A DNA stretch of 64,000 nt from Betaproteobacteria bacterium. Its GTDB lineage: Bacteria; Pseudomonadota; Gammaproteobacteria; Burkholderiales; Ga0077523. The stretch spans positions 45,082 to 109,081 of the forward strand of contig JANXYG010000004.1 of NCBI GenBank assembly GCA_025350245.1, written 5' to 3'. Under the pieces are notes generated by a model that saw nothing but the letters and a program-made list of their open reading frames with translations, searched no databases and was not told the origin of the DNA. The position numbers were made by a program, and so were the translations under genes. Shown in pieces: positions 332 to 4,266 of this stretch; positions within the stretch are counted from its first letter, which is position 1; each line of letters begins with the position of its first letter.

Positions 332-904
332 TCAGGTGGCGCCGGCGACCGTGCGGTTACGCCGTCCAAGCGTCAGCGCCAGCAGGGCGAACCCGGCGAG
401 CATCATCGCCACCGTGCTCGGTTCCGGCACGCCCAGCACCTGCACCGAGGCCTTGCCGAACAATGGCGTGATCTCATTTCCCGCGACATCGCTGAACACG
501 AACAACGTCGACGCGGCCAGTGCGATTTCCGAGAGGCCGAGCGCGAGCGCCTTGAAACTCAGGGTGGCAATGTCGAAGTCGCCGCTGCGAGGGGTGGCGA
601 AACTGTTGAAGCTGGCGTCCGTCAGGGTGCCTGCAACGTTGTCGATGGCGCCGCCGGCCGGAACGAATTCCCAGATCGGGGCGATGCTCACCCCGGTGAG
701 TTGCAAGGCGGCGCCATTGAACGTGAAGTCGAACCCGCCACCCACGAGGGTTTCGAGAAAGCCCTGGCCCCTCACCTCGAGATCGAAACTGTCGCCGACA
801 TTCACCACCGTGTTCAGTGGCTGGATGATCAGGGATCCTGCGGTGGCGGTTGCCGCGGCGGACAGCAGGGCAATCGCTGCCAGAAATGCACGAAATCGTT
901 TCAT
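332..904 (-). CDS. PEP-CTERM sorting-domain protein with cohesin-like domain
   Basis: Signal peptide; VNVGDSFDLEVRG...FDFTFNGAALQLTGV...ATLSFKALALGLSEIAL resembles a cohesin fold; C-terminal VPEPSTVAMMLAGFALLALTLGRRNR is a PEP-CTERM motif. Confidence 0.85.
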   Translation of the reverse strand: MKRFRAFLAAIALLSAAATATAGSLIIQPLNTVVNVGDSFDLEVRGQGFLETLVGGGFDFTFNGAALQLTGVSIAPIWEFVPAGGAIDNVAGTLTDASFNSFATPRSGDFDIATLSFKALALGLSEIALAASTLFVFSDVAGNEITPLFGKASVQVLGVPEPSTVAMMLAGFALLALTLGRRNRTVAGAT

Positions 905-977
905 GTCACCCTCTCTTCGTTGAACGAAATACCGGACTTCCGATCGGTAACCAGTCGAGCATTTTCAATACGGATGC

Positions 978-3602
978 TCACCCGGCATCGGACGGCAGAT
1001 GCCAGGCGGAGCGTCCCGGCCGGCGGCCGAAAAGCTGCTTGAACTTCGCCAGATCGATCGCGTTCACCAGGCCGTCGCCGTTGATGTCGGCGGCGGTTTC
1101 GCCGCGCGTGCCGAACCGCGCCTTGAACAGCGCCAGATCGATGCTGTTGACGAAGCCGTCGTTGTTGAGGTCGCCATCGCAGGCGTTACCGTAGCCGTCG
1201 CGGTCGGTGTCGAGTTGGTCTTTGTTGGCGATGTCGATGCAGTTGTCGCGGCTGTCGGGAACGCCGTCGCGATCGGTGTCGGTCTCGTCCAGCGCCGCCT
1301 GGACGGAGAGGCCGTCCGGCGACCCGACCCGCACCCAGAAATTGCCCTTGAAGCCACCCAGATCGATGCGCCCGTCGCCCTCGCGATTGATCAGGCCTCG
1401 GCCCAGGATGCGACCCGACTCGGGATCGATGGCAACCGCGGTGATCAGTTCGGGGAACGGGCAGGAGAGGCAGGGCGGGTCTGGAATCGGAATCCGGATG
1501 ACCGCAAGCCCTTCCAGCAGCGCGATGTTGACCACCGAGAAGATCCACGGCGGGCTGACGCGAAGCTTGACCGTGGGGTCGCCGAGCAGGTTGTAGAGAT
1601 TCAGTTCCTGGCGCAAGCCCGATACCCCGGGGCGAACGCCGCCGACATCGAACGGATGCAGGTTCGGCGTGGCACCCGAGTCCACGGCGGCAATGAACGC
1701 CCTGGCGTGGTTGAGGACGTCCCCCAGGCGCTGGATCGGGGTGGCGGCACCATAGCCTGGAATGAAGTCGGGGAAGATGGCGTCGAACAGGCCGAGCGTC
1801 AGGTGATTGTTGTCGATCGTGCTGCTCGAGCGGGTATCGCCGATCACCGCCAGCGCCCCGTCGGCCTTGCGCAGGAAGGCCTCCGCCCAGTACACCGTGC
1901 CGGGCGCGGGTCCGTAGCCGGCACCGACGATATTCGCGGGCAGATCGACCGTTTCGTTGTCGAAGATGCCGCTCGCGCAGTTGATGCTGAACACCACCGG
2001 GAACCGGTTGTTGGTGACCGCGATTGCGCCGAGGTCGCCGGTGTCGAAAGCGGGGTCGCCCCATCCATCCCACCAGCCATGGTCGCGGTGATACAGCAGC
2101 GCGGTGCCGTTGTTGACCGCATTGACGATGTCGGCCGTCGTCCCGTTCCAGGCGAATCCGGGCTTGCGCAGATCGAGCGGAATGGCCCCGCCGCCGCGAT
2201 AGAACAGCGGATTCGCGGCAGCACTGGCGGTGTAAATGCGTTGCGGGGAGTATCCGAGTGTTTCGGTGTAGTCGCGCACCAGTTCGGTGGTTTCCGCAAA
2301 CCAGCGGTCATCAGTGGGGTCGTTACCCTGAAAGTAGGATGCGAAGGTCAGGCGGTTGTAGAAATCGCTGCCGAACAGAGCATTCGGCGGCGGCGAGGTT
2401 TCGAAGGCCATCGTCTTCGAGACGATCGTGTTCGCCTGGGCCAGGGTGTCGACCGGAAACCGGCCGATGCCGAATGGCGGAATGTCGGTCGGCCCGGCGC
2501 CGAACTGGCCATACCAGATGTCGCTCGCGTTCTTCGCCGAGTCGGAATTGTTGTTGAGGTCGTAGTGGGTGGGGATGTACTCGGCGTCGCCGACGAACAG
2601 CACCCACTTGGGTTTGATGAGATGGGTGGCGTAGTAGTTGGCAATCCAGTTGCGGATTTGTACCGCGCTTGCTACCGCCGGACCGCCGGAGATCGTCTGC
2701 GTATTCACGACCAGCGTCGAGATGCCCAGCGCCACCTTGTGCGCGCGCAGCGTGTTGGCCGCGGCCAGGAAATCAGGGTGCGTGATGATCAGGAATCGCA
2801 CTCCGGAGCGGTTCGGTATCAGGGCCGGCGGGCAGAACTGCTTGATCGCGAACGCCTTGTTCAGGGCCAGCGGCAGGGCCGGAAGCGGCAGGCGCTCGAA
2901 ATGCTGGTCGATGCCGTCGAACGCGGGCAGGGTCCTGGTATCGATCAGCCGATCGATCAGGAAGCAGTCGCCGGCGTCGTGGAATATCGTGACCAGATAG
3001 CTGGGATAGTAGGTGAGCAGACTTTTGGCGGGGTCGTAGCCGAAGGGCGAGAACTTGAAGGTGGCCACGTTGGCGTCGCCCTTGAAGATCGAGTTTCGTT
3101 CCAGTGCCTCGCCAGGTTGCCGCGAGCCCTTCAGATAGAGGTCGCGGTCGAACTGGAACTTGGGTAGCTCCCGATCCTGTTTGCGCGCGATCTCGCCCGG
3201 TTGCACCGGGAAGATCGTGGCCTGCAGAATCCTCGGGTCGCCTTCGGGCTTCACGTCGACGCTCAGCGTCGTCAGGTCGATCGGCAATGCCAGCGGGAAA
3301 CCGATCACCGGTAGTTCCGGGTGGCCGAGTGAGCCGACACCGATGCCGGCACCGCCCTGCCCACCCTCGCGCTGCGAGAAACGCTGGAACTTGCCGGCCG
3401 GCGTGTCGACATCCTCGAGTTTCGGCGAGCCGACGGTGATCCGCAGGAGAGTGATTCGAGGCCCTGCTTCCACCAACTGTACCGAGACCGCGGCATGCGC
3501 CACCGAGAACCAGGTCGACAGAAAAGCGAGGAAGGTCGCGAACGCAAAGGGTATGCAGGGTATGCAGGGTATGCAGAGTCTTGTAGTCATTGGATCCTCC
3601 AT
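978..3602 (-). CDS. C25 (gingipain-type) peptidase with thrombospondin type 3-like repeats and C-terminal dockerin type I domain
   Basis: LLYHRDHGWWDGWGDP...FPVVFSINCASGIFD fits the C25 His/Cys motifs; DTDRDGVPDSRDNC is TSP3-like; GDLNNDGFVNSIDLALFKARFG + ADINGDGLVNAIDLAKFKQLFG is a duplicated dockerin Ca-binding repeat. Alternative start at 3590. Confidence 0.85.
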   Translation of the reverse strand: MEDPMTTRLCIPCIPCIPFAFATFLAFLSTWFSVAHAAVSVQLVEAGPRITLLRITVGSPKLEDVDTPAGKFQRFSQREGGQGGAGIGVGSLGHPELPVIGFPLALPIDLTTLSVDVKPEGDPRILQATIFPVQPGEIARKQDRELPKFQFDRDLYLKGSRQPGEALERNSIFKGDANVATFKFSPFGYDPAKSLLTYYPSYLVTIFHDAGDCFLIDRLIDTRTLPAFDGIDQHFERLPLPALPLALNKAFAIKQFCPPALIPNRSGVRFLIITHPDFLAAANTLRAHKVALGISTLVVNTQTISGGPAVASAVQIRNWIANYYATHLIKPKWVLFVGDAEYIPTHYDLNNNSDSAKNASDIWYGQFGAGPTDIPPFGIGRFPVDTLAQANTIVSKTMAFETSPPPNALFGSDFYNRLTFASYFQGNDPTDDRWFAETTELVRDYTETLGYSPQRIYTASAAANPLFYRGGGAIPLDLRKPGFAWNGTTADIVNAVNNGTALLYHRDHGWWDGWGDPAFDTGDLGAIAVTNNRFPVVFSINCASGIFDNETVDLPANIVGAGYGPAPGTVYWAEAFLRKADGALAVIGDTRSSSTIDNNHLTLGLFDAIFPDFIPGYGAATPIQRLGDVLNHARAFIAAVDSGATPNLHPFDVGGVRPGVSGLRQELNLYNLLGDPTVKLRVSPPWIFSVVNIALLEGLAVIRIPIPDPPCLSCPFPELITAVAIDPESGRILGRGLINREGDGRIDLGGFKGNFWVRVGSPDGLSVQAALDETDTDRDGVPDSRDNCIDIANKDQLDTDRDGYGNACDGDLNNDGFVNSIDLALFKARFGTRGETAADINGDGLVNAIDLAKFKQLFGRRPGRSAWHLPSDAG
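3549..3575. repeat. Three tandem copies of the 9-bp unit GGGTATGCA
   Basis: gggtatgca x3, read directly; encodes CIPCIPCIP in the signal peptide of the C25 peptidase. Confidence 0.95.
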
Positions 3603-3699: not shown

Positions 3700-4266
3700 T
3701 TGGCTAGGGATTTTGTTTTTGCGATCGACCGGATTGCTATTGGAAGATCGCTAGGAATCCACTGTGGTAACGGTTGTCGCGGATCGGTGAAGATGAAACA
3801 TCGTTGTTTCAAAAGGAGAGACCGGCCGCGGGTCCGATCCGCGGTGGGCATCCGCGACGCGCACGGAATGTGGTCCGGAGCGTTTCCGCACCGACGCGAA
3901 AATCGACCTGTCGGTTCTGACGGATCCGCGCGTTCGTTCGTGCGAATCGTCCAGACGCCGGCCGGCTTCGAAGGCAAGGTGGTCGGGATCCTGCCGTTGC
4001 CGAGCGATGATCCCGACAACCCGGGCCGGCTGTGCAAGCTCTGCACCGACGAGCGCAAGGACAAGCCGATCCTGGGGATGATCAGTCTGCGAGGCCTGAG
4101 GCCCGACGGCGATGTGTTCGCCGGCGGCGAGACTCTCGACCCCGACAACAGCAAGACCTACCGCTGCAAGTTGATGGTCAGGGACGGCGGCAAGCGCCTG
4201 GATGTGCGAGGCTTCATCGGCATGGCGTTGATCGGCCGCACCCAGAGCTGGGTGCGCGAGGAGTAG
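3700..4266 (+). CDS. DUF2147-domain protein; N-terminus uncertain, possibly 5'-degraded
   Basis: GKVVGILPLPSDDPDNPGRLCKLCTDERKDKPILGMISLRGLRPDGDVFAGGETLDPDNSKTYRCKLMVRDGGKRLDVRGFIGMALIGRTQSWVR resembles DUF2147; no credible signal peptide upstream. Confidence 0.6.
   Translation: MARDFVFAIDRIAIGRSLGIHCGNGCRGSVKMKHRCFKRRDRPRVRSAVGIRDAHGMWSGAFPHRRENRPVGSDGSARSFVRIVQTPAGFEGKVVGILPLPSDDPDNPGRLCKLCTDERKDKPILGMISLRGLRPDGDVFAGGETLDPDNSKTYRCKLMVRDGGKRLDVRGFIGMALIGRTQSWVREE

Follow-up and report, generated by a model that had tools for sequence, protein, structure and literature searches.

A single-cohesin PEP-CTERM protein encoded beside a dockerin-bearing C25 protease: a likely surface-display pair

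The gene pair and its protease

The window (the whole 64,000-nucleotide stretch of DNA analysed here) contains two neighbouring genes for secreted proteins, the upstream one encoding a C25 protease that ends in a dockerin and the downstream one a short protein with a cohesin module and a PEP-CTERM sorting tail (Table 1). A sequence-only reading had described two same-strand genes about 73 bp apart, and their coordinates, strand and spacing were all confirmed. It had also described the upstream product as a secreted C25 peptidase with TSP3-like repeats and a duplicated dockerin motif, which held in Pfam and phmmer searches.

Table 1. Features of the gene pair, in window positions
Feature	Position	Strand	Basis
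C25 (gingipain-type) cysteine protease gene, dockerin at C-terminus	978..3602	-	874 aa ORF; nine orthologs, 57–62% identity
Protease N-terminal secretion signal (approximate), residues 1–38	3489..3602	-	Sequence inspection; Met5 at 3590 is a possible true start
C25 propeptide, residues 56–207	2982..3437	-	Pfam PF08126 (Propeptide_C25) 3.6e-8
C25 catalytic domain, residues 270–680	1563..2795	-	Pfam PF01364 (Peptidase_C25) 5e-49
Catalytic His508, pairs with gingipain R His211	2079..2081	-	phmmer alignment; invariant in 10 aligned orthologs
Catalytic Cys542, pairs with gingipain R Cys244	1977..1979	-	phmmer alignment; invariant in 10 aligned orthologs
TSP3-like Ca-binding repeats, residues 774–824	1131..1283	-	Pfam PF02412 (TSP_3) 2.9e-6; thrombospondin/COMP matches
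Type I dockerin, residues 809–862, followed by PGRSAWHL	1017..1178	-	Pfam PF00404 (Dockerin_1) 2e-10; solved dockerin matches; alignment
Intergenic gap, protease to cohesin gene	905..977	-	73 bp exactly
Single-cohesin PEP-CTERM protein gene	332..904	-	190 aa ORF
Cohesin-protein signal peptide (approximate), residues 1–22	839..904	-	Sequence inspection
Cohesin module, residues 23–158 (136 residues)	431..838	-	AlphaFold2 model; Foldseek; Pfam Cohesin in relatives
PEP-CTERM sorting tail VPEPSTVAMMLAGFALLALTLGRRNR, residues 159–184	353..430	-	Pfam PF07589 9.3e-6 and TIGR02595, both exceeding cut-off

The product of 978-3602 satisfies the criterion for a C25 peptidase, namely the domain together with its catalytic His and Cys, and its C-terminus satisfies that for a type I dockerin (two F-hand Ca loops, PF00404), the duplicated loops DLNNDGFVNSID and DINGDGLVNAID both having D/N/D/D at the ligand positions. 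The C25 domain, propeptide and His/Cys dyad are shared with the Porphyromonas gingipains; unlike these, the window protease carries a C-terminal dockerin, and neither Pfam nor NCBIfam showed a type IX sorting domain at its C-terminus. An NCBIfam match to the type IX secretion system protein PorU fell under the cut-off and is explained by common C25 homology.

Third-position GC is 0.80 and 0.83 for the two genes, and overlapping ORFs on the opposite strand (e.g. 999-3167 on the plus strand, 722 aa) look like shadow ORFs of GC-rich sequence. Judging from the surrounding ORFs the pair seems to be free-standing, with a convergent gene on the cohesin side and a divergent nearest ORF (3700-4266, plus strand) on the protease side. 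Promoter and terminator scans gave nothing exceeding shuffles.

The cohesin module and its sorting tail

The downstream product had been read as a short secreted protein with cohesin-like sequence and a PEP-CTERM tail, and this too held, the cohesin call requiring AlphaFold2 and Foldseek beyond a sub-threshold Pfam match. The window protein scores E 0.015 with Pfam Cohesin (16–17 bits, cut-off 24.1 bits), the same profile picks up 21 of the 30 family members in the alignment at E<=0.1, the best of them at 2.9e-7, and searching PDB sequences with a profile returned weak cohesin matches only (best E 0.018). Since Pfam and phmmer were insufficient for a cohesin call, fold prediction was applied, the AlphaFold2 input for the mature domain being an alignment of 30 natural relatives. 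With the resulting model (pLDDT 95.6, pTM 0.88) the top 39 Foldseek matches in the PDB were all cohesins (best E 8e-11), and the TM-score by query length was 0.81 to 6kgc_A. The cohesin jelly-roll fold of this domain is settled as far as prediction allows, and the check that a cohesin fold be found in 332..904, failure of which would have refuted the display proposal of the sequence-only reading, was passed.

The same product satisfies the criterion for a PEP-CTERM substrate, having a signal peptide and a C-terminal PEP motif, transmembrane helix and basic end. Its matches to named NCBIfam PEP-CTERM families are driven by the tail and lie under cut-off.

The draft genome to which the window belongs, a metagenome-assembled genome (MAG) that is 95.8% complete, gave no match to exosortase (PF09721). 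Given that this genome contains 53 PEP-CTERM matches and that both of the sister species tested carry two exosortases (the enzyme was found in 16 of 22 genomes), the absence is likely to be an assembly gap. The criterion of an exosortase in the same genome is nonetheless unmet, and exosortase processing of the cohesin protein in this organism can only be inferred.

Adjacency of cohesin and dockerin genes

Scanning 84,980 species genomes with the protease recovered nine ortholog loci, in MAGs of Burkholderiales/Aquabacterium, two of the loci sharing one MAG. A cohesin-like PEP-CTERM gene lies directly downstream on the same strand in all nine, at spacings of roughly 20–110 bp. A remote tenth match, a C25 protein of Hydrothermota (26% identity), has neither a dockerin nor a cohesin or PEP-CTERM neighbour. 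Plasmid searches returned no relatives.

Wider surveys used a profile built from the cohesin domain, with the sorting tail left out, and covered 399 genomes of the order and 369 of the class. A dockerin gene is the next gene on the same strand in 12 of the 22 further cohesin loci (L047, L057, L077, L099, L100, L101, L103, L107, L109, L111, L112 and L115). Most of these dockerins are recognised by Pfam Dockerin_1; the calls at L047, L057, L103, L109 and L112 combine weak Pfam scores with the duplicated Ca-loop motif, and those at L107 and L111 rest on the motif only. The ten loci with no directly adjacent dockerin (L048, L053, L102, L104, L105, L106, L108, L110, L113 and L114) stay in the denominators; some of them lie at contig ends or have a cohesin that lacks the PEP-CTERM tail, and at L108 the dockerin is one gene away. 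Survey matches at E-values of about 1e-4 to 1e-3 may include some that are not true family members.

An independent test applied a new cohesin profile to a phylum sample at a stricter E-value than the survey. All eight new loci, from six new genomes, have an adjacent dockerin gene on the same strand, with gaps of -12 to 117 bp and Pfam Dockerin_1 matches at 3.8e-4 or better; in the survey the adjacent fraction had been 12/22, against 8/8 here.

As a control within the same 22 genomes, 12 of 23 cohesin loci, but not one of 149 other PEP-CTERM genes, had a Dockerin_1 match no more than 4 kb away (Fisher p 1.4e-12 with the window, 1.1e-11 without it). The PEP-CTERM set comprised the best entries of a longer list, one listed cohesin gene being excluded. 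The 12 loci include L108, and the adjacent pairs at L107 and L111 are uncounted because Pfam misses their dockerins. Cohesin-dockerin adjacency far exceeds chance. The check for conservation of the gene pair, on which the sequence-only reading had staked its proposal, was passed both by the nine orthologs and by the general neighbour pattern in distant families, and what had been described as one pair is, on this evidence, a recurrent arrangement.

The dockerin proteins encoded beside cohesin genes include proteases (subtilases, a reprolysin-type metalloprotease and an M9 collagenase), LTD/endonuclease-type nucleases, a glucuronyl-esterase-like protein, a calcineurin-like phosphoesterase, an Rhs/RTX protein and PKD/Ig proteins. 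Two types of dockerin were seen. Type A mostly comes after TSP3 repeats and ends in PGPSG/A; type B mostly has cysteines and a second loop resembling ITVLDAR. In the tree, the five survey cohesins with type B dockerin neighbours fall into a single group (support 92/76), and 0 of 500 shuffles were as low; the tool's highest support level is not reached for this group, and resolution is poor across most of the tree. Cohesin subtypes go with dockerin subtypes, as expected of matched binding pairs, for which there are no binding data.

Some loci differ in architecture. At L101 (G534:C14) one dockerin gene is followed by two tandem cohesin genes, the first without a recognisable sorting tail. The cohesin relative at L102:5962-6921 (minus strand) lacks a PEP-CTERM tail and has instead a long linker rich in Thr and Gln, with a transmembrane helix at the C-terminus, an arrangement that from sequence alone we infer to be a different anchor for the same cohesin module. 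One VPLPA-tailed cohesin gene at L116 (G610:C42:16001-36000) lies beside several dockerin genes (four dockerin ORFs called), possibly a locus for the display of multiple cargoes. Rhs-repeat proteins that closely resemble one another and end in dockerins are present in several copies at L047 and L055 (G002:C6, C3), one copy preceding a cohesin gene; the second cohesin copy of that genome, at L048, is without a dockerin neighbour.

The display hypothesis and its alternatives

In the ortholog at L062 both genes lie in one frame, 30 bp apart, and reading through the single stop gave a natural dockerin-linker-cohesin chain for AlphaFold2. Dockerin and cohesin were well predicted and the linker (58-96) was disordered, with a pTM of 0.76. 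For a chain of this length the ceiling is about 0.60 if the dockerin is unplaced relative to the cohesin, and the higher value therefore implies a confident relative placement of the two. Docking of this cohesin on this dockerin is a model prediction, in which proximity was forced by the read-through, there was no non-cognate control and the interface was not inspected. The sequence-only reading had also made its proposal depend on predicted or measured Ca-dependent binding; that check was passed in silico only, and there are no Ca-dependent binding data.

We consider it likely (probability about 0.78) that 332-904 and 978-3602 encode a secreted surface-display pair, made up of an exosortase-type single-cohesin anchor and a dockerin-bearing protease, with binding, processing and location inferred. 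In this view both proteins would cross the inner membrane via their signal peptides, and the exosortase pathway, acting on the PEP-CTERM tail, would deliver the small protein to the envelope or to the exopolysaccharide matrix. The sorted protein would present one cohesin, and the C25 protease, itself without a recognised sorting tail, would be captured non-covalently via its C-terminal Ca-binding dockerin. The pair would be one case of a recurrent proteobacterial arrangement, in which varied dockerin exoenzymes have their anchor supplied by a neighbouring gene. The domains, the predicted cohesin fold, the conserved and specific adjacency and the matched cohesin and dockerin subtypes are shown; binding in vivo and final location (outer membrane, surface or matrix) are inferences. 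The original suggestion of a single-cohesin anchor capturing the protease is thus supported, the choice between surface and matrix and the processing by exosortase being still inferred.

The cohesin fold is that of cellulosomal type I systems in Clostridium and Acetivibrio (6kgf, 1g1k, 2vn6, 1ohz), which also share the canonical duplicated Ca-loop dockerin. However, the window anchor has one cohesin, without a scaffoldin or cellulose-binding module, its cargo is a protease, and a PEP-CTERM tail stands in place of SLH or sortase anchoring. The criterion for a cellulosome (multi-cohesin scaffoldin, cellulose-binding module and glycosidase cargo) is unmet by the window pair; by analogy the display pair resembles a one-socket cellulosome anchor, yet it is not a cellulosome, and its kind of cargo is mostly non-cellulolytic.

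Non-cellulosomal cohesins of Archaeoglobus (2xdh) and C. perfringens (2vo8/2jh2) are among the Foldseek structural matches of the window cohesin. The function of cohesin and dockerin outside the cellulosome has been stated as not known (PMC5244752), and non-cellulosomal modules have been discussed in methanotrophic archaea (PMC9012536). Such modules, including those of ANME archaea (PMC5244752, PMC9012536), have in common with the window pair the use of cohesin and dockerin outside cellulose degradation, whereas the window-type cohesin is a stand-alone exosortase-type substrate with a presumed dockerin partner next door and varied cargo. A signal peptide and a PEP-CTERM (or VPxPA) tail are common to the cohesin anchors and to PEP-CTERM/exosortase substrates in general, but we infer that the sorted cohesin protein is a socket for another protein and not an effector. 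No paper was found that treats PEP-CTERM together with dockerin in the literature searched, which left subscription journals mostly outside. Non-cellulosomal cohesin-dockerin is already known; what is probably new is an exosortase-type single-cohesin anchor beside its dockerin cargo.

The alternative that survives best, itself unlikely, is that the protease dockerin docks on the cohesins of giant (>12,000 aa) surface-type proteins, the small cohesin belonging to another partner or being a secondary site. The window's genome does encode two large proteins with a Pfam cohesin and dockerin near the C-terminus, competition is possible and cross-binding is not excluded. Against this, the giants' cohesins have adjacent dockerins of their own, and the protease orthologs always accompany the small cohesin gene; in genomes from other families, dockerin cargoes unrelated to the protease do likewise.

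It is very unlikely that the cohesin module does not bind dockerin and that adjacency merely reflects co-expression of secreted surface proteins. The absence of binding data and the sub-threshold Pfam score of the window cohesin leave room for this, but no dockerin lies near any of the 149 other PEP-CTERM genes, the predicted fold is clearly that of a cohesin, and cohesin subtype follows dockerin subtype. Also very unlikely is a role for the cohesin protein as chaperone, inhibitor or substrate of the protease and not as anchor, which could be entertained for a zymogen-type protease with a propeptide, but partners elsewhere are nuclease, esterase, phosphoesterase, Rhs and PKD proteins, so that dockerin and not proteolysis is the common factor, and most cohesin members retain their sorting tails.

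The two large proteins of the window's genome are of interest in themselves. One is a ~12,971-aa ORF (G000:C64; L050:15186-20000, minus strand, and L154) with an N-terminal LEPR-XLL-like motif, FKRKVMFEALESRLLMSA; it and the second (G000:C1, L049) each have a Pfam dockerin and then a cohesin near the C-terminus, and relatives include ORFs of this kind of up to 14,056 aa. The presence of dockerin and cohesin on one giant chain could conceivably permit head-to-tail assembly.

Returning to the display pair, a bolder reading, which we also regard as likely, is that it belongs to a general and undescribed enzyme-display system of Gammaproteobacteria, including Burkholderiales, in which exosortase-sorted single-cohesin anchors would hold adjacent-encoded, dockerin-tagged exoenzymes in at least two specificity classes, the dockerin replacing a covalent sorting tail. 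If this is true, proteins processed by exosortase can serve as adaptors, a single sorted protein could put several secreted enzymes on display, and the new cohesin-dockerin pairs would serve protein display. Since neighbouring genes give both halves and the sorting signal, the function is directly testable. L148, L149, L152 and L153 encode secreted nucleases that belong to the endonuclease/exonuclease/phosphatase family and end in a dockerin, a lamin-tail domain being present in most; each nuclease gene adjoins a cohesin sorting-tail gene, and these loci would be tractable for testing the system.
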